Shown here one piece after another: positions 1 to 27,966 of a stretch of 32,742 nucleotides of DNA. The notes under the pieces were generated by a model, which was not told the DNA's origin, did no database searches, and saw only the letters and a program-made list of their open reading frames with translations. Every line of letters starts with the position of its first letter. Within the stretch, counting starts at the first letter, position 1. The stretch is taken from the IMG/VR virus record IMGVR_UViG_3300024256_000034, positions 1-32,742 of that record, one strand, 5' to 3'. Source of the DNA: a virus. The position numbers and the translations under genes were made by a program.

Positions 1-3000
1 CAAACAATACGATTATGAATTGTTATTACGGTATACGATTGAATTATAGTTCGTTTAACGCTACTATTCAAAATAATATTATAGTAGATTGTACAAATGA
101 TTACTATGAAGATACAATTCCTAAAAATCCTACTTTTATAGGTAATATTTTTAGTGATGATGATATAGTTTCTTATGGTTATGACATGTCTAAGAATCAT
201 GTTTTAACAGATCCAGAACTAATTGATATAGACGGAAATGTCTTTATTCCTAGTTTGAGTTCGTCCGCAAAAAACAAGGGAACATTTGTTAACAGTTCTA
301 TTGACTATTATAATACAGATAGAATTGCTAATGACATTGGAGCCGTAAAGATTTCTGAATTTGAGAGTTCTAATGGAAATAATCTTACACTAGTTTCTGA
401 AATTGATTTTTCAAAAGAAGTATGACAGTATAGAACTTATCCCAGAGAAACAGTTCAAATTAAAAATAATTCTAATTATGAAATAACAAATATAAAAATT
501 ACCATACCTAGTTTAGACTTTATCCTATGAGAGCCAGGAAGCTTGTCGCCAAATGCGACAATACAAAGCGGAGAAAGCTTCCATGTCATGGTAGATTTTA
601 GACCACAAAGTATAGGCTTAATAACAGGAAGCATTCAAATTAGTTATGATATAGACGATTTGAGTTTTACAGAAGCTGTTTCGAACTGTATGCGAGGAAC
701 CGGCATAGCTATACCAGAAGCCGATTATTATGTGAGTACTACAGGTTCAAACGCAAATTCAGGAACCGAACTTTTTCCACTACAAACAATGAACGAAGCT
801 TTTGCTCAAGCAACTGCAGGCGATATGATTTTTGTTAGAGAAGGTATTTATGATGAAACTATAACTGGTAATATCAATAATTCTACTGCTAATAATTGAG
901 ATGATGCAATTCGTATGGTTGCTTATCCTGGCGAAGAGGTCGTAATAAGTCCATCTGGTGATGATAGATATTGTGCATATTTTACTGCAGCAGATGATAA
1001 ATATTTCTCATTAGAAGATCTTATCCTTGATGGCTCAAGAGTTTCTTATACGGATCTTTACTATACATCAGTTAAAGCTTTTGCTATTAGTAACAGAGCT
1101 ACCAACGGCAGGTTGTGGAACTGTGAAGTTAAGAACTATTATGTAGACGGGCTTTCTGCAGCAAGTATTGACGAGCCTGTTACGCTTGGTGGAAGTATAG
1201 GCTCATCTGGATGTGAAATCTTGTATTGTGATATTCATGATGTTTCAAGATATGGACTTTATCTCAGTTCGTATGATCACGGTTCTTACACTCGTCAAGC
1301 AAGCGCTTGTACATTTAAAGGAAATTATTTCCATCATTTAGGAAGAGGAACTTCTTCTGGATATAAATCGTATTCTTCATACGGCTTTCACTGCAATAAT
1401 GAAAATAACGGTTTGGATCTGAACAATAATGAATTTAGTGATAACCTAATTGATCATATTGGCAGCGCTGGAATTGTTTTGGCGGGTTTAACAAACTCAA
1501 AAATTTGAAATAACATTTTTATCAACTCTAAAGGTGGTATTTGGGCCAATTACGTCACATCCTTAAATAATGAAGTTTATAACAACACTATTATTAACTG
1601 CTATCAAGGAATTCGCATTAACAGTACTTCAACCGGAGATCTTTTCTACAATAATATTATTCAGTTTGGATCAGATTCTAGTTATGACATTTATGATCAA
1701 GGCGCCATCAGTGCAGATATAAAGTATAATATATACAGTGTGAGTCATGGCGTTTCTAGTATTTCTGCTGATAACTTTGCTGGAAATACCGGAATACATT
1801 CGTCTAATTATAGTTATAATAAATACGGAATATCTACTTATTATGGCACTCCCGTTACATTGGACTCAGGATTTACTAATTTCAACGGCGCATGAGTTAA
1901 CAGATTATCTGTTGACTTCTTTGGAATAGGAAGAACGTTAATGGATTTAGGCGCTGTTGATAGTTTCCATTCCGTTGACACTGGCGGAATTGATGGCGGT
2001 AGTAACGGAGGTAATCCTAAAAGTATAGAAGATTTGGAAAAAGATGAGATACAAGTATCAGAGATAGGCCTTTATGTCGAAAAGGTTCAGAACTATACTA
2101 ATTTTGGTCTCTATGATTTATATTATTCAGAGTATGAAGCTTTAGAATCACCGGTTGAATATTTAGAATTTTTCCCAGATATGGAGTATTATCAACATTA
2201 TTTTTTCATGCCCGGTCTTATTGACCACAAGTGGTATATTGGATCAGATAAGTTATCTGCCCCATGGGCATATAATTGAGAAGGTGAATTAGTCTTGGGG
2301 TCACATGCACCGGTATGAGTACATTTTGGAGCATTACATTATAACCAATTTTATGATAATATGTTTCTGGATATTGCGAATCAATTTTCAAGTATTTCTA
2401 AAATCGTAAATGCTTATAATGTGGAGGCTGTTCATAGTGATACAAAAACAAATTTAGATAATTTATGAGAAAATTATATTGAATATGAAAAGTCTATTTT
2501 AGATTCTTTAGAAAAAAATCATAAAGATTCCGAGACATTACTTCAGAAGTTGAATGAAATAAATAGTTTTAGACCAAAAATAAATACTATAAAAAATATC
2601 TATAACCTAGATACAGACCTAGTTTCTGCCTATTTAATAAATTCTAAAACAAAAAATACATTTGATATTTCTGAAAGTGTGTCGTTTGATAATGATTTAT
2701 GAAAATTAAAATTAGACCCTATTAAAAATATAATTCCAGATTATAAACTATCTTTAAAAGATAAATTTAAAATTGTAATTATGTCTACGGGAATAACGCT
2801 ATCTGAATTTGAATATCTTAATAGAATGGGTATTAAATTAAATTTAAGTGACATAGATTCCGATCCTAATATTTTAATAAATAATATTGTAAACGCGGAA
2901 ATAGTTTTTGATAAGAAATATATTATCGAAAATTATATTTTAGACGGAGAAGAACTATCAATCTTTTTTAATAAAAAAATGTTAAAAAAAGAAATTAAAA

Positions 3001-3218
3001 ATGTAACAGAATGCATAATATATCCAAATTATTTTGAAAAGATTTATATTGATATATCATTTTCTGTTTTACACGATTATTTAAAAACTAATTTACCTAT
3101 GGGAAAGGAAATGCGAGAAAACTTTGTCGGCACAAAGCAACTCGGTTCGATATATAAGAAGAGTGCAATTACGGTCGTTGAACCTAATACAACTTCAAAG
3201 AAAGAGGAAATTTGATAA
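1..3218 (+). CDS. Tailspike-like protein with two right-handed beta-helix units (5' partial, TGA=Trp)
   Basis: The gene is open from the left edge (first full codon at base 3) to TAA at 3216, about 1072 residues, with TGA read as Trp at several sites (e.g. 423, 528, 897, 1506, 2277, 3213). The window opens in the last turns of one parallel beta-helix, ending in the usual 'DP.L.D.DG..F.P...S.A.N.G ... DIGAV' pattern. An Ig-like segment follows (about 480-715; PGSLSPN, VDFRPQSIG, GTGIA) of the ASH/choice-of-anchor-D type. Next comes a second beta-helix that begins YYVSTTGSNANSGTE and ends in DLGAVDSF near 1970. The C-terminal third (2000-3215) is unlike these and partly helical. The family acts as a surface-exposed receptor-binding spike, often on polysaccharide; no catalytic residues can be assigned here. 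It overlaps the next start by one base (TAATG). The fold is well supported; the enzymatic role is not. Confidence 0.8.
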
Positions 3219-4408
3219 TGCCAGATAATATTAGCGAAGCAACAAAACAGAACTTTATTCAGCTTAAAAATTATATGCATACATATAAACCGCTATATTC
3301 TAAAATTATCGGAAAAGGAGAAGCTTTATTCGCTTCGATTACGGGAGATGATTTAGAAGATACCGTAAAAGAATCTATTTTTGAAGGGTTTTATAAAGCA
3401 AAGGAATGATATAATTTTTATTCTGTTCTGGAAGAAAAATTTAACTTATCTTCGGATATAGATTTGACTGAAAATACGGGTATTAAAGCGCTTTTGGGTT
3501 CTTTAGAATTCTCAATTCGAGGCCTAAAAGATCAAACGAAGAATCTATTAGAAACGGTCTCTGCTGTAACATATAGTCTTTCTTCGAATTCTTTTTGAGG
3601 CTTTGAGATGCAGAGTGACATGTGATTAGATAATTTGTATGATCAAATAAGTTTATTAGATGAATTGTATGGGGAGCAGATTAATAAAAATATTTTAGAT
3701 ACCCTCTCTGCTATTTCAGCGAATACGGTTCAATTAGAAGAAATTTATGATAATTTAAATTCTTTAAAACTTACACAAAGTTTTGGAATCTATAAATCAA
3801 ATAAAAATATAGATAAAGATAGAATCATTATTAATTTAGTTTCTTTAAATGCCACAACGCCTATTGATGCAGATGTTACAGAAAATTTAGAATTTAAAAA
3901 CGGTCTATCCCAGCTATCATTCGACGACGGTCTTCCTGAGGGAAATTACTTATTAAGTTTTTCAAATAAAAATACAATTGAATTATCTAATATGATTTCA
4001 TTAGAAGACGGAAGATATAGCGTTCGGAAGGTTGATAGAAATATTATTGGTTGATTGATTAATTATGAGTATCCGATAATTCGATTTGAGTCGGGAGAAT
4101 CTCGCGATATTATTACAATTGGTAATAGTTTTGATGTTTTTTTTAATAGTAGTTTAAACTTTGCGGCATATGATTACTACATAGAGCCTTTCTCTGTTTT
4201 TATGGAAGCTAAAATAAATAAAGCAGATGCTATTTATGACTTCTTCTATGGCGACTATATAGATGAACTAGTTGACGAATCGGATGAAAAAACCATATAT
4301 AATAGAAAGATATATGACGTTGATGACAAATTATTAGCGATATATAAAATGACCGTAAGAAAAAACGAAAATGGTATTCCAGACATTCAATACGAGAAGA
4401 TACAATAA
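3218..4408 (+). CDS. Unknown 396-aa probable virion protein
   Basis: It starts at ATG 3218, which shares its A with the TAA of the tailspike gene, so the two are probably translationally coupled. It ends at TAA 4406. In-frame TGA (Trp) codons occur at 3407, about 3597, 3623 and 4052. The first half looks alpha-helical (a Leu, Glu and Asn-rich stretch around residues 110-190). The second half looks beta-rich, with motifs such as LPEGNYLLSFSN and RFESGESRDIITIGNSF. I do not recognise a family. Its position between a tailspike and a giant tail or baseplate protein, three bases before the latter, suggests a virion component, perhaps a connector or chaperone for the spike. Confidence 0.75.
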
Positions 4409-14783: not shown

Positions 14784-15329
14784 ATGTCAATTGTTTTGGG
14801 TCTCGATATTTCTACATCTCATGTAGGAGTTTGTGTTTACGATAATAAAGAAAATAAAATTTTAAAAATAGATAATATATTGCTTTCTAAATTAGTAAAA
14901 GATGGCGATATCTTTAAAAAAACCGCGATTTTTAAAGAAGAAATAGAAAAAGTATTCGAGGAATTTCAAATCAATAAAACAATTATTGAAAAACCTTTAG
15001 ATGCATTTTCTATGGGCAGATCTTCGGCAGGCACTATTATTAAGTTACATAACTTTAATATTTTATGTCAGTATATTTTAAATGAAATGAACGTTAAATT
15101 TGAATCATTTGCTAGAACTACTATTCTGAAGAAAGTAACCGGTCGCGGAAGAAAGCCAAAGAAGTATACGAATATAGATACTAAAGAATGATTGGCTGTT
15201 TATTTTATTGCAGAGCAACCTGGCATCGAGTTGAAGTATTATAGCCGCGGAAAAAATGAAGGAAAACTTCACGCAGAATCTTACGATATGATTGATGCAT
15301 GAGCTTGTTGTAAATTTGTAAAGCCATAA
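14784..15329 (+). CDS. RuvC-like Holliday junction resolvase / RNase H-fold nuclease
   Basis: ATG 14784 lies behind a strong AGAGGGG ribosome binding site (14772-14778); the gene ends at TAA 15327 (181 aa). Two TGA are read as Trp (15189, and DAWACC near the end). The protein starts LGLDISTSHVGV, the first beta strand and catalytic Asp (D8) of the RuvC/RNase H fold. IIEKPL carries the second acid (E69), and ESYDMIDAW at residues 165-173 supplies the C-terminal acid (D168 or D171). The length is near that of bacterial RuvC (about 170 aa). It would resolve branched DNA during recombination-dependent replication or before packaging, where T4 uses endonuclease VII. It lies just upstream of the primase and the Mre11-Rad50 gene. 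Confidence 0.75.
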
Positions 15330-15692: not shown

Positions 15693-16610
15693 ATGTTAGA
15701 AAACATTAAAGATTTACTAGAAGACAAATTAGGTTCTTCAGATGGAAATGAAAATCAATTAAAATTTCATTGTCCTTATTGCGATCATCATAATAAAAAA
15801 TTAGAAGTAAGTATAGAAAAAAGTGTATTTCATTGCTGAATTTGTGATACTTCGGGAAGTTTGTCTAAGTTATTTAAAAAATTAGATATAAAATCCGATA
15901 TATTAAAATCGGAAAAGAGTCTAACAGAAGATCTATTAGCTCAAGCTATATCTGAGTTATCTGAAACATCAACCGATAATAAAAGTTATTCTACTATACC
16001 AAATACTTATAAACCAATTAGGTTTGCAGATAAAACAAATAACTATAAGCAAGCATATAGTTATTTATTTAAACGTAAACTTAAGTTATACGATATGATT
16101 AAGTATAATATTCATTACGATACAGAACATTACAATATTTTAATTCCGTCCTATGATTCCAAAGGTAAAGTAAATTATACTTTTGAAAGAAGTACCAATA
16201 CAAGTTTTAAAAAGAATCCAAGCGTATCAAAAAAAGATATTGTTTTTAACGAACTTTTTATAGATTGAAAAGAAGCTATAACTTTGGTAGAAGGTCCTTT
16301 CGATGCAATATCTGCTGGTAATAATAGCGTGCCTCTCCTTGGCTCCACTCTAGATGATGATTATTATTTATTTAAACAATTAATAAAACATAAACCTTGT
16401 ATATATATTGCGTTAGATTATGACGCAAGAAAGAAGCAAGAGAAAATAGCGAATTTATTATATTCATATGGATTACAAGTTTATACAATAGATCTGCCTA
16501 AAGACTTAGATATCAACGAATTAGGTATGTTTAAATTTAATAAGTATAAACAAAATGCAAAATTATATACAGAAATGACAACGTTATTAACGGCATTAGA
16601 AACCTTATAG
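15693..16610 (+). CDS. DNA primase, DnaG-type (zinc ribbon + Toprim)
   Basis: It runs from ATG 15693, behind AAGAGG, to TAG 16608 (305 aa). It synthesises RNA primers for lagging-strand replication, the role of gp61 in T4. The zinc ribbon is CPYC (C27, C30) and CWIC (C48, C51). The Trp between the last two Cys is TGA (15837), a position often Trp in CHC2-type fingers. The Toprim domain shows LVEGPFDA (E200) and ALDYDARKK (D242, D244), the metal-binding acids. Another TGA (16266) precedes the Toprim. It is shorter than bacterial DnaG (about 600 aa) and lacks a visible helicase-binding domain, as usual for phage primases. The Mre11-Rad50 gene starts nine bases downstream. Confidence 0.88.
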
Positions 16611-16618
16611 AGGGAATA

Positions 16619-19600
16619 TTGAAAAAGAAAATAGTTTTTATATCAGACCTACACATACGAAACGTTTCAAGATTTAAAGAATACGCAAAAGCCTTTACCG
16701 AAACCGTTAAAGAAATTAAAAAAATTAAACCAGATTATATCGTCAATGGCGGCGATACCTTCCACCAAAAATTAACATTATCTCCAGAAAGTGTTTATTT
16801 AGCTAGAATATTTTTTACGAATTTAGGCAAAATCTGTCCTGTTTACTCTATCGTTGGCAATCACGATTGTAATATGAATAATTTAAATCGAATGGATGCT
16901 ATATCTTCCGCACTAAAAGATATACCAAATAACATCGTCTTGAAGCATTCTGATATTTATAAAATAGATGAAGATCTAAATATCGGTTTGTGTTCTATCT
17001 TAGATAGTCCTTCTAAATGACCTTTCGATAAGTTAGATAAGACTAAAATAAATATAGCGGTATATCATGGCCCATTAATCGGAGCAGTAAATGATCAGAA
17101 TTTTAAGCTAGAAAATTCAACTTTGAAACCTTCTTTATTTAAAAATTATGATTTTGTATTTGCGGGAGACATACATTCTAATTTTGCTTACGATAAGCTA
17201 AATAAAACTCCTAGAATATGATCTATAGGTAATTTAATTCAGCAAAATTTCGGCGAATCAGATATAAAAGGCTTCTTACTTTTAGATATTAAAAGTAAAG
17301 ATGATTTTAATCTAGAATTTAAACAAATTAAAAATGATTACAATTATTTGACTATAAATTTAATAGAAGAAGATTTGGAGAATAATAAAAAAACAATCAA
17401 TAAAGAATTAAAAAAACTTCATATAACCAAGCATACAAACTTACGCATTATATTTCATACTGAAAAAATAATAAGCGAAGATCACAAAAACAATATTAAG
17501 CATTTTATAGCAGATAAATATGGAATCGATGTTGCTTTTTCTGAAAAGAGCATAGTTGTCAATAGTAATGAAGAGTTACAGGATTTAGAGAACAAAACAT
17601 TAAATTTTAATAACGTGACAGTACAAAATAAATTATTAGAAAACTACATCAAACATAAAGATGGCTATAAAAATATTTTAAATGACAAAGAAAAATTATT
17701 CAAACTAAATGAAAATATAAATGAAAGCTTAGGAAACGTTGATTCGGAACAAGATAATACAGATTGAACTATAGAAAGTCTGGCGTTTCAAAATATTTTC
17801 TGTTTTAAAGAAAACAATTTCATAGACTTTAATAATTTAAAAGGCGTCATAGGCCTCTATGGTCCGAATGCCTCGGGCAAAAGCAGTATTTTTAATATAA
17901 TAACGTTTGTAATTTTTGGTAAGACCTTAAAAAAAACAAATATGCTAAACGTATTAAATCATGATTCAAATTCTGGTTTTATTAAAATTATACTTAAAAA
18001 AGGTGAAAAAAAATATAGAATTACTAGAATATTAAATTCTAATAAAAAAGCCTCGGCAGTTAAAGCTATTGTTAATTTTGAAGACTGGCGTAATGATGAA
18101 TGAAAATCGTTAAACGAGGAAACACTTCCTCTTACAAATAAAAAAATTACAGATTTTTTTGGAGATTTAAATGAATTTTTAATGACGTCTATGAGCACAC
18201 AAGATAATTATAATATTTTTATTGATCTTGGAAACACAGATAGAAAAGAAATAATTATGAGATATTTAGGATTGGGTATCTTTAATAAATTACATGAAAA
18301 AACGACAGAACAAATCAAAGAAGTAAAAGCGGTAATAGCATCTATTGATAATTTTGAAGAAGACTTGACAGAATTAAAAATCTATAAGAGAAAGTTGAAA
18401 GATTTAAAGTTAGAAGACGCATCAAATAAAAAGCAAATTAAAAAATTAATAAAAGAGATAATAGAGCATGAATCTGATAAGCTAAAAACCAAACAAAAAA
18501 TTACTTCTATAATTATGCCAGTAGGTGGCACGGCCTCTTGTGATGATGGTATAATTCGTTTAAGTAGGCTCAAAAGCGAGATCTCTACAAAATTATCGCA
18601 AGCCGTGAATATAGCTAAAAATTTAAAGAATGAAAAAAATATAGATATTAAATTAGAACAAAAGCTGAAAGCTGATTATAAAAGATTAAACGAATCAAAA
18701 ATAAGTTTTGAGACAGAACTCAAATTACTGAAAAAAGAAGTTTTAAATAATGATAATTTAGATATAGATTGCGATGTTATTTCATGTAAATTATTAATAG
18801 ATCATAAAAAGAAAAAAGACGTCAAAGAACAGATTTTAGAAATAGAAAAGCATTTATTAGAATTACGCGCAGATATGGATAAAATAAAATCTAAGTTATT
18901 TAATATAAATGATTTACGGTCTAAAAAAGAAAATATTATTTCTTTAAAAGATTCACTTACACAAACTAAGAAAAAATTGGAAGAATTTAACGAAAACAAA
19001 AAGCTTTTAGAGAAGAATAAAGAGACGATTAAAAAGAATATTGTAATAGAAAAAGAAGTCGAATTATTAAACAATAAAATAAATACGGCGAAGATAGCTC
19101 AGAGTAGAAGCGAAACGGAAATGAGATCTAATAAAGTACTCAAAAAAGAATACGAAGCAAGAATAGAAGTCGTTGACGCAAATTTAGAAAACGTATCCAA
19201 GATGAAGAAAGAATACGAGATATTAGATACCTATAGGAATATAATCAATCCAAATGCGTTACCTAATACTTTGCTCCATAATTATTTAAATAAGTTTGAA
19301 ACAGAAGTCAATAGAATACTTAATGATTCTACGAATCTATTTATTAAAACAGAATTAATTCGTAAAAAGAATAACAAGTCAGTTGATTTGGATATTCAAT
19401 ATAAAAGCAAATCTAGCTCTAAATTTTTGCCTATCGAATTAGCCTCCGGGGCAGAGAAGTTATTTTTGTCCATAGCAATTCGAGTAGGTTTAATTAAACT
19501 AACCTCTTTGCAAAAAACAGATACATTAATTATTGATGAAGGATTCTCGTCATTACATGCTTCAAATATAAGTAAATTAGGGCCTTATTTTGATACAATT

Positions 19601-19717
19601 AAAGATAATTTTAAAAGAATAATATTAGTGACCCACATCGAACAAATTCAAGATTTACCGGATACTATCATAAATATTAAGAAAAATGATAAAGGCGAGA
19701 CACATATTAATATTTAA
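16619..19717 (+). CDS. Mre11-Rad50 (SbcD-SbcC; T4 gp47-gp46) fusion protein
   Basis: A single frame of 1032 aa runs from TTG 16619 (ribosome binding site GAGGG four bases upstream) to TAA 19715. Residues 1-300 are an Mre11/SbcD calcineurin-type nuclease: SDLH (D10, H12), GGDTFH (D46, H49), GNHD (N81-D83), YHG (H150), AGDIH (D184, H186) and IGNLIQQNFGE. A linker follows. The Rad50/SbcC ATPase then begins at about residue 384: Walker A GPNASGKSS (K421), a long coiled coil (about 560-880), signature ASGAEKLFLSIA (942-953), Walker B LIIDEGFSSL, and THIEQ. In T4 and bacteria the two subunits are separate genes. The junction codon is TGA (17765, residue 383) with no ATG, GTG or TTG start or ribosome binding site at the ATPase start, so with TGA=Trp this is one protein. 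The role is end resection for recombination-dependent replication. The hook apex lacks CxxC and shows C718-x4-C723. Confidence 0.9.
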
Positions 19718-19767: not shown

Positions 19768-20046
19768 ATGTCAAGCAAGAGTAATAATTTTAGCGTAGAG
19801 TTAAATTCAAAAGATAGAGATCAAACGGCGGCAACGGAAAAAATGATTCGTCTCTTTAATAAAAAATATAGAGAATCTGGTTTATTATATGAATTACGAG
19901 AAAATGATTTTTATGAGAAGCCTTCTGACACAAAACGTAGAATTAAGTCAAAGAAGAAGAAGATTCAAAAAATATATAAATTAATTAGAGCCGGAAAGCT
20001 TAAGGCAAAGAATAAACGTCTGCAACAAGAAGTAATGGATTCATAA
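19768..20046 (+). CDS. rpsU: Ribosomal protein bS21 homologue
   Basis: ATG 19768 lies behind AAAGGAG (19755-19761); the gene ends at TAA 20044 (92 aa). Residues 25-70 carry the bS21 signature: a basic helix with IRLFNKKYRESGLLYELREN, then DFYEKPSDTKRRIKSKKKK, which parallels the 'F....ESG.L.E.R.R.FYEKPS..RKRK' pattern of bacterial S21. bS21 binds the 30S platform near the anti-Shine-Dalgarno region and takes part in initiation. Phage copies are known in some large phages and are thought to compete with the host protein to bias translation. The protein is longer than typical bacterial S21 (about 70 aa), with a 24-residue N-terminal extension. It sits between the recombination genes and small virion-like genes. 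The family call is strong; the effect on host ribosomes is inference. Confidence 0.85.
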   Translation: MSSKSNNFSVELNSKDRDQTAATEKMIRLFNKKYRESGLLYELRENDFYEKPSDTKRRIKSKKKKIQKIYKLIRAGKLKAKNKRLQQEVMDS

Positions 20047-24819: not shown

Positions 24820-24882
24820 ATGCAAATAAAAGCAATCTTCTATATATAATTACACTATGATAAAAATAAGGTATTGATAGAA

Positions 24883-27800
24883 ATGGCAAAAAATAGCAAA
24901 AGTTATAAGGCAGAAAAAATTCTGCCAGACGAAAATAAATATGTTGCCGACGTAAAAACCGAGCCCAAAACATCGAATCTATATAATCAATATAGTAAAG
25001 ACACTATAAAAGCCTCGTTCCCTAAAAATACTCCAAAAGCAAAAGAAAATTTACATTTATCCCCTTCTATTCGAGATGAAAAAAAGTTATTCAAAAAACT
25101 TAAGAAGATGATTACCGGCCCAGATATTTTACCTAATTTAGATAAATATATTCAAGGTAAAATGACTCGTAAACAGGCGGAAAAAGTTGCAAGATATGAA
25201 GAATACTTTAAAAAAATTCAAAGTATGACATATTTTGGAGTTATGCAGAATGATGGTGATCGTAGACTTCGTTATATGGAATATGATCGAATGGAATGGA
25301 TGTCCCCGGAAGTAGGAAGAGCCCTAGATGCATTAGCCTCTGATGCCACAACTTTGAACGAAGAAAATCAGGTTGTAAAGGTTATGTCGAAGCATGGCAA
25401 AATAACAGAAGAAGCCAATGATTTATTTAATAATATATTAGATATCAAATCAAATTTATTTTATTGAATAAGAGATACGCTAAAGTACGGAGATAGTTTC
25501 TTTACTTTACATATAGACGCCCATGACGGGATTAAAAAAGCAGTGCCAGCGCCAGTTGAGCAATGTGAAAGAGAAGTTGGATATGATGAGCAAAATCCAT
25601 TCGCGCATAGGTTTAAAATTGCTGGTTTAGGTGAAGAATATTTGCAACCATATGAGGTTGCTCATTTTAGATTGAAAGCTTCTGTAGATTTTGGTGAATA
25701 TGGAAAATCAGTTCTAGAAAATGCAAGGCGTATTTGAAGGCAATTAATTACAATTGAAGATAGTATGCTTATTTACCGTCTTGTCAGAGCGCCCGAAAGA
25801 AGAATCTTTTATTTTGACGTAGGTAATTTAAGTCCAGAATCCGTAGAAGCTGCGATTAACAAATACTCTTCTGAAATGAAGAAAGAAAAAATCTATGATA
25901 CAGAAGGTAATATAGATTATCGTATGAGCCTTCAGCCGCTTCATAAAGACACAAAAGTACCTTTATTGGATAATAGAATTTTAACATTAGAAGAATTAGC
26001 AAAAGAATATGAAGAAGGCAAAGTTAATTGAACATATTCGATTGACGATAAAACCCATAAGCTAAAGCCAGGCAAGATTAAGTGAGCTGGGAAAAACTAC
26101 AGCGACGCTAAGATCTTAAAAGTAGAATTAGATAATGGTAGTTATGTCCTATCGCATCCTTCACACCCTTTTATTCTTAGAGATGGTAGTTCGCTAGCCG
26201 CAGAGGATTTAAAGCCTTATATGAGCTTAATGCCGTTCTATTCGAAGATAAATAATAGCGGTTACGAAGAGACGTATGAGCCTGGGACTAATAAAACAAA
26301 AATGACGCATACATTTGTCGCGCGGGATACTTATAACGATGAATTTAAAGTTTTAGACGAGAATCACGAAACGAATGATAGAAAAAAGAAGAGTGTCCCA
26401 ATCGTGCATCACAAAGGAATCACGGGTTGAAAAAATAATAAGCTAAATAATAGTCCCGAAAATTTAATTCCAATGAATTGGGAAGAGCACGCGACTTGAC
26501 ATAAAATTCAATGTAATTTGACGTTAAATAACCCCGAAGCTTTAGAAAAGCGTAAGAAAAGATTAATAGAGTATAATAAAACTAAAGCAAATAGTGATAA
26601 TACAATCTATTATAATAAATTATATAAAAAAGCAGAACATATGGGAGAGATTTATAATAATTCTGAATTGCATAAATTTCATAATATAATTCGTAGAAAA
26701 GCTATGAAAGATCATTGAAAAAATGGAGGCCATAAAATCCCATCTGTGATTTTCGATAAGTATATTTGAAATAGTCTGAATGACGCCATAAATACTAATA
26801 AGATAATAAGTCAAAAGTCCGCAGTAGATTTTATTAATAATAATTTAATTGACTATTTAATTAAATTAAATCCAGCTTGTACGAAATTAATAAATAATAA
26901 AAAAATATCAAAAATATTAATAAAAGCAAAAATACAAGAATTAGGATTTAAAGATTTTGAAGATTATCATAAAAATAATATAATAAATCATAAAGTTAAA
27001 TCTATTTCCGTATGGCACGAAACGGAAGATGTTTATTGTATGACAATTATAGGTGATAATGGCCAGAATGATAGACATAACTTTGCTATTATACCTGAAA
27101 ATTGTATGGAAAATGATAAATCGAGCCCTTATAAGATGACCAGACATTCAGGTTTATTCGTAAAAAACTCGGTGGAAGAAGATATTTTTGTACCAACTCG
27201 TGGTGGACATTCTAATACTAAGATCGAAACCCTGCCTGCTCAGCAATGGGCCGTAATTGACGACGTTAAATATCTTCATGATAAGTTTATCGCAGCCTTA
27301 GCTGTACCAAATGATTATCTTGGCTACGAGAACTCAATGGGAAGCACAACGACACTGGGAAACCAAGATATTAGATATTCAAAGTTTGTTGAAAGAATTC
27401 AAAGATCTATTTTAGAAACGCTTAATGATATTTTAATGATTCATCTTTATATTAAAGGATATAAGAGCCTGGATCTATCTGAAATTGAATTAAGTTTAAC
27501 TAACCCTTCGCATATAAATGAATTGCAACAACTTGAAATTTTAGCATCAAGATTCGACTTATATCAAAATGCAAAAGAAAATGGTATTTATAGCTCTTAT
27601 TGATTAAAGAAAAATATTTTAGATTTAACTGACGAAGAAATCGAGCAAGAAGAATTAAATGTATTAAGAGATAATATTGTAGACTTTACAAAGATGCAGG
27701 CGCAAGAAGGTGTTTTATTAACTGTTAAAGATGTATTAGATTATAACAATACTCAAAATCAAGCTGCAGCTAATGCGATGGGTATGGACGCTGGAATGCC

Positions 27801-27966
27801 AGGCGGCGCCGGCGGAATGAGTGACTTTGGCCCTAGCGATGACTTCGGAGACATGGGAGGCGCAGATATAGGCGGTATAGAACCAGATATAGATACTTCT
27901 ATGGGAGATGCCGAAGATCTAGCTGACGAAGTTGAAGACATTGATTTAGCAACTCCGGAAATTTAA
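24883..27966 (+). CDS. Portal protein (T4 gp20-like) interrupted by an HNH intein
   Basis: It runs from ATG 24883, with AAGG 11 bases upstream, to TAA 27964: 1027 aa of precursor and about 616 aa after removal of the intein (residues 352-762). The portal forms the dodecameric packaging vertex. The exteins carry T4-type portal features: RYMEYDRMEWMSPEVGRALD, VAHFRLKASVDFGEYGKSVL, RAPERRIFYFDVGNLS and NIDYRMSLQ before the insertion, and SVEEDIFVPTRGG, IETLPAQQ and LAVPNDYLGYE after it. The C-terminus is Gly, Asp and Met-rich. An alternative TTG start at 24874 is possible but worse placed. The splice residues are odd (Pro at intein position 1), so efficient splicing needs testing. The gene follows the terminase by 63 bases and abuts the nucleotidyltransferase-domain gene. 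Confidence 0.9.
25936..27168 (+). mobile_element. 411-aa intein with HNH homing endonuclease, inserted in the portal
   Basis: The N-terminal splicing block reads PLHKDTKVPLLDNRILTLEE, matching phage inteins that start CLxxDTKIPLLDGRTLT but with Pro in place of Cys1. WTYSIDD, KPGKIKWAGKNY and VELDNGSYVLSHPSHPFILR follow (block B; Thr of TxxH is His here). Block F is VYCMTII...DRHNFAI and block G is SGLFVKN, followed by extein Ser. The penultimate residue is Lys rather than His. An alternative C-terminus at PEN|C (27102) is less likely, because SGLFVKN|S matches block G and restores a portal-like SVEEDIFVP. Removal joins YRMSLQ to SVEEDIF. Boundaries are inferred from these blocks. The element would home into intein-less portal alleles. 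Confidence 0.82.
26404..26505 (+). other. HNH endonuclease motif inside the intein
   Basis: VHHKGITG (intein residues 158-159 are HH), then KLNNSPENLIPMNWEEHATW and the following HK, give the H-H...N...H pattern of HNH homing nucleases. These commonly show 'HH.d..kLNNsP.NL..m...eH...H'. The key His, Asn and His residues are present, so the nuclease looks intact although the splicing blocks are atypical. Downstream helical segments (26600-26990) are probably its DNA-recognition region. Confidence 0.8.

Follow-up and report, generated by a model that had tools for sequence, protein, structure and literature searches.

The fusion of Mre11 and Rad50 (MR) in a single polypeptide has been described before. 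Yoshida, Claverie and Ogata, 2011 identified R555 of Mimivirus as an Mre11-Rad50 fusion and listed twelve further fusions from bacteria, plasmids, eukaryotes and the Bacillus phage 0305phi8-36, in which a predicted linker of 9-12 residues, reaching over about 28 angstrom, was deemed sufficient (PMC3175470). Aquatic viral metagenomes are rich in homologues of R555, in part on scaffolds with phage-type primases, and in R555 itself the third position of motif II is histidine and Pyrococcus His206 is replaced by aspartate (PMC3175470). The earlier note on the DNA studied here had taken the known systems to be separate subunits encoded by adjacent genes. This is correct for T4 and S-SSM7 in so far as their genes are separate and near each other; however, small ORFs lie between them, and the fusions published in 2011 contradict the general statement. 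Biochemical work on the fused form seems scarce: a partial literature search brought up the 2011 study of sequences but no enzymology on any naturally occurring MR fusion.

The window that we analysed is a virus record of 32,742 bases, with a T4-like head block comprising a terminase, a T4-type portal and an S77 prohead protease. Positions 16619-19717 (+) form a single code-4 open frame of 1032 codons with a TAA stop; table 11 breaks this frame, which contains four in-frame TGA codons, at residues 134, 201, 383 and 495. The TTG start, at a position where relatives have ATG, lies directly past the primase stop, and GAGGG at 16610-16614 (+), with a 4-base spacing to the TTG, is its probable ribosome binding site. 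Pfam places Metallophos at residues 4-187 (E 4e-13) and AAA_23 at residues 388-619 (E 1e-13), and together with the motifs this upholds the description in the earlier note of one 1032-codon frame with the nuclease motifs followed by the full Rad50 set. The PHROG profiles phrog_77 and phrog_100 match segments crossing both halves, though these profiles may themselves contain fusions. Full-length homologues exist, and homology is far beyond chance: tblastn matches cover residues 3-1022 with E-values, relative to the candidate stretches, down to 1e-107. It is confirmed that the Mre11/SbcD and Rad50/SbcC halves encoded by the window are both complete and are joined in one frame. We consider it highly probable that the product is a covalently joined Mre11-Rad50 (SbcD-SbcC) end-processing enzyme from a tailed phage related to T4, in which TGA is read as tryptophan, likely with M2R2 composition and serving recombination-dependent replication.

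Prediction of the full chain with AlphaFold2, from an input alignment of 39 relatives, gave a model with a mean pLDDT of 80.5 and a pTM of 0.48. All Mre11 and Rad50 domains appear in it, in the order nuclease (residues 3-236), cap (243-310), helix-loop-helix (HLH; 333-346 and 351-371), a Rad50 strand from residue 382, the coil and the second half of the ATPase (881-1022); about 10 residues link the HLH to the Rad50 strand. Since the pTM is only 0.48, the mutual placing of the Mre11 and Rad50 halves is not fixed by this model. In VIA-align the Rad50 part superposes on E. coli SbcC in SbcCD with a Z of 33.3 (4.1 angstrom over 352 residues) and on archaeal and Thermotoga Rad50 with a Z of about 31, and in Foldseek the Mre11 part matches SbcD of Staphylococcus aureus and Mre11 of Methanocaldococcus jannaschii (MjMre11) and Thermotoga. 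The top BFVD matches in Foldseek are fusion-sized proteins of giant viruses, namely Tupanvirus (1379 aa), Yasminevirus and Harvfovirus, the best of them being Tupanvirus A0A6N1NVE8 with 21% identity over 1332 columns; next come similarly sized phage proteins from Listeria LMTA-57 and Tenacibaculum pT24 and PTm1. The LMTA-57 entry (A0A068CB47) is a 1009-aa 'recombination exonuclease', and Listeria LP-048 has two genes; the LMTA-57 protein is either a recent fusion or the result of an annotation that joined two frames.

The Mre11 nuclease domain spans residues 1-236 (16619-17326, +), as judged by Pfam (PF00149), the model, a Foldseek match to SbcD (7dog) and conservation in 133 fused proteins, which comprise the window protein, 130 distinct standard-code homologues and the proteins of two code-4 contigs. 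The motifs D10/H12, D46/H49, N81/H82, H150 and G183-D184-I185-H186 are all present and are conserved in the fusion family. Compared against the residues named in PMC3175470, they reproduce the R555-type set of metal ligands: D, H, D with the motif II His, N-H, H, Asp for His206, and H. Asp184, the counterpart of the second-metal ligand His206 of Pyrococcus, is invariant in all 133 fused proteins, and the four split phage homologues (T4, S-SSM7, Listeria LP-048 and Stenotrophomonas ANB28) keep GHxH without the Asp. Since it is invariant across the family, we believe that Asp184 is likely functional. Whether covalent linkage and the altered second metal site together make the phage fusions an MR enzyme class that is functionally distinct and would cut differently from SbcCD or gp46/gp47 is a tentative suggestion that we regard as more doubtful than probable. 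The predicted capping domain follows at residues ~243-310 (17345-17548, +), where Foldseek matches the nuclease and capping domain of SbcD 7dog, and the C-terminal HLH at residues 333-346 and 351-371 (17615-17731, +) would be the Rad50-binding element, given its modelled position, which is that of the HLH in the fusions of PMC3175470.

The N-terminal ATPase half of Rad50 (residues 383-552; 17765-18274, +) contains the Walker A motif GPNASGKS at residues 415-422 with K421 (17861-17884, +), as well as the Q-loop Q528. The C-terminal half (residues 881-1032; 19259-19714, +), supported by the model, VIA-align and phmmer matches to Rad50 chains, contains the ABC signature ASGAEK at residues 942-947 with S943-G-A-E946 (19442-19459, +), the Walker B motif at residues 969-976 with D973/E974 (19523-19546, +) and the H-loop H1006, and all of these elements are conserved in the family. 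Between the halves, the model predicts a coiled coil of two antiparallel arms at residues 553-875 (18275-19243, +), built from helices 553-710 and 726-875. Its apex (18746-18805, +), a low-confidence loop in the model, has C718-x4-C723 (18770-18787) in the place of the CxxC zinc hook; no CxxC is present. In an alignment of 41 fused proteins, 30 have CxxC in register and 11, including the window protein, do not; several of the other ten carry PCG-x4/5-C. As the head domains show Rad50 ancestry, the altered hook is compatible with such ancestry. The D-loop residue 980 (19556-19558) is histidine in the window protein only, and aspartate in 131 of the 133 proteins.

Given that Asp184 replaces His206, that residue 980 is histidine and that the hook is C-x4-C, the activity of the window protein could be altered. 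Taken further, the same three features would fit a fused MR relative that is no longer catalytic and serves solely to tether or scaffold DNA. However, the remaining nuclease and ATPase residues are intact, Asp184 does not vary within the family, and R555 carries the same Asp substitution (PMC3175470). We therefore consider the loss of catalysis improbable and favour an active end-processing enzyme.

The 25 main frames of the window contain 97 in-frame TGA codons and end in TAA (23) or TAG (2). Of 35 TGA columns aligned to standard-code homologues, 16 are mostly tryptophan and none is mostly glycine; in the primase, two such columns are tryptophan in 156 of 156 and in 153 of 157 homologues. Since the aligned columns are mostly tryptophan and in no case mostly glycine, TGA is read as tryptophan in the window phage, and reading as glycine (code 25) was ruled out on the latter ground. 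A tRNA search of the window found no suppressor tRNA, which says little for a fragment. Two further viral contigs with TGA as tryptophan, L187 and L178, have a fused MR frame; these were found by a pattern search demanding TGA at the junction, and their proteins are ~31% and 34% identical to the window protein over the parts that these contigs contain.

The junction itself lies at TGA 17765-17767 (+), which, as the earlier note had proposed, encodes a tryptophan; this Trp383 is in the first Rad50 strand. Tryptophan occupies this position in 131 of the 133 fused proteins, and the codon is TGA in L187 and L178 as well. A pairwise count had given 48 lysines at residue 383; these are most likely alignment slips beside a conserved Trp-Lys and were set aside in favour of the multiple alignment. 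Across the 133 fused proteins, Q336 and W383 are 44-52 residues apart (median 46). An acidic linker had been suggested here. The covalent single chain stands, but in the model most of this region is the Mre11 C-terminal domain, with the HLH at 333-371, so that only about 10 residues would act as a link: residues 372-382 (17732-17764, +), of which 374-378 are of low confidence. With the HLH ending at 371 and the first Rad50 strand predicted at 382, this agrees with the 9-12 residues expected from PMC3175470.

If TGA 17765 were a true or partly used stop, free Mre11 would be made, with Rad50 or the fusion arising by re-initiation or read-through as a regulated switch. Such a reading draws on the position of the codon exactly at the domain boundary and on the fact that some recoded-stop phages infect standard-code hosts (PMC11210395 and others). 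However, residue 383 is inside open standard-code frames in 130 proteins, and three more TGA codons in the fusion gene, like the 97 of the window gene set, are at columns that are tryptophan in relatives. Furthermore, there is no in-frame ATG, GTG or TTG past the junction: in agreement with the earlier note, none occurs at residues 341-440, which contain only the weak codons ATT, ATA, ATC and CTG. Because of the conserved Trp383, the near-fixed spacing from Q336 and the TGA at the same place in L187 and L178, we believe that a stop at 17765 is very unlikely and that the gene is translated through the junction as one chain.

Scanned with the window protein, viral contigs yielded 352 stretches that encode relatives; with an alignment as the query they yielded at least 579. 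The whole fusion is a single table-11 open frame in 152 of the loci kept, of which 130 are distinct in sequence. Open reading frames counted in the homologues with codes 4 and 15 were discarded, being the same genes extended past their own stop. A search for the nuclease and SbcC domains in one ORF, suggested in the earlier note, has thus yielded 130 distinct standard-code fusions and two code-4 contigs. That the fusion might be an assembly or sequencing artefact of what is a single metagenome contig is scarcely credible: we found nothing in support of it, and it is refuted by the same architecture in 130 distinct proteins encoded on independent contigs, in a cultured phage and in the two code-4 contigs. 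Across a large group of phages related to T4, most of them aquatic and TGA-as-tryptophan lineages included, the fused form is the standard one. In a maximum-likelihood tree of the Mre11 part, which covers 43 fused proteins and the four split phage homologues as outgroups, the fused proteins group together against the split ones (99/98); because the split homologues are on long branches, this is a limited test of the fused group, reaching only as far as these four outgroups. The three code-4 fusions are on separate branches, which weakly hints at several independent code changes. The fusion is not tied to the altered code, as the standard code is used by most members; it is ancestral to the window gene rather than a product of recoding. 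In TGA-as-tryptophan lineages, ordinary annotation would split such a gene into pieces.

The earlier note had considered a single-chain MR complex unusual. Given that fusions were published in 2011 (PMC3175470), that they are common in the phages scanned here and that the top BFVD matches are fusion-sized, this claim of novelty fails, and the window gene is a sound but ordinary instance of an already described fusion. What makes it of interest is chiefly how widespread the family is among phages and that the Asp at the second-metal position does not vary. Like R555, the window protein is a single chain with Mre11 first, a short linker after the HLH, and the residues H49 and D184. In contrast to R555, it has 1032 rather than 1351 aa, with a shorter coil, and a TGA-encoded tryptophan, and its host would be a bacterium rather than an amoeba. 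The phage fusions are either related to the R555 type, known here from its description in PMC3175470, or functionally like it.

Among cultured phages, Microcystis phage Mel-JY01 encodes a fusion, WWT39521.1, annotated 'AAA domain containing protein', which has the same architecture over residues 3-1022 and is the single place in that genome matching the fusion. Its portal, terminase and protease are related to those of the window. However, the Mel-JY01 fusion uses the standard code, is 29% identical, and has a canonical CxxC hook and the D-loop Asp. T4 gp47/gp46 and their counterparts in cyanophage, Listeria and Stenotrophomonas phages share the two activities and, by the gp46/gp47 annotation, the phage role; these differ in being two separate genes, in having GHxH instead of the GDIH of the window, and in grouping apart in the tree. 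E. coli SbcCD (6s6v, 6s85, 7yzo) shares the fold of the Rad50 head, with the same domain order implied, but has two chains and a far longer coil (SbcC, 1048 aa). With its roughly 1030 residues and fairly short coil, a natural single-chain MR of this kind would lend itself well to structural studies of the complex.

Based on these comparisons, we propose the following model. Two chains would pair through their Mre11 and Rad50 parts, most likely as a homodimer with an SbcCD-like M2R2 composition. The HLH would sit at the base of the coiled coil, with the linker running from there to the beginning of the ATPase. Driven by ATP, the Rad50 heads would open and close and so gate the access of DNA to the nuclease, which would trim or cut ends. 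For this end processing, T4 gp46/47 provide the role model (record annotation; PMC3175470). The fusion may thereby make 3' ends that feed recombination-dependent replication, alongside the neighbouring DnaG-type primase (15693-16610, +) and a RuvC-like resolvase of the same recombination block (14784-15329, +). The primase is a conserved upstream neighbour, with primase followed by fusion in Mel-JY01 (L082) and in the 484-kb metagenomic phage LR756508 (L083). The order RuvC-like resolvase, primase and MR fusion is common to the window and LR756508, whose ORF at that place is RuvC-like judging by its sequence. The window is a 32.7 kb fragment, and separate Mre11 or Rad50 genes may lie elsewhere in the genome.

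Several other features of these genomes were observed. In LR756508.1, about 1 kb (2565-3600) interrupts the Mre11 half and contains an ORF of 305 aa (2668-3585) with a zinc-finger-like and endonuclease-like appearance. This insert may be an intron or an intein with a homing endonuclease; Rfam gave no match in the window, L082 or L083, and no intron at the insert. The T4-type portal gene of the window (24874-27966) is split by an intein, with Pfam Intein_splicing at residues 363-727, flanked on either side by portal matches. A homologue of ribosomal protein S21 is encoded at 19768-20046, immediately behind the fusion gene; an S21 protein is annotated in Mel-JY01 too, at another place in that genome. 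Finally, a 4.5-kb viral contig (L085) encodes a terminase 98% identical to that of the window, and the window virus has therefore been assembled in a second sample.
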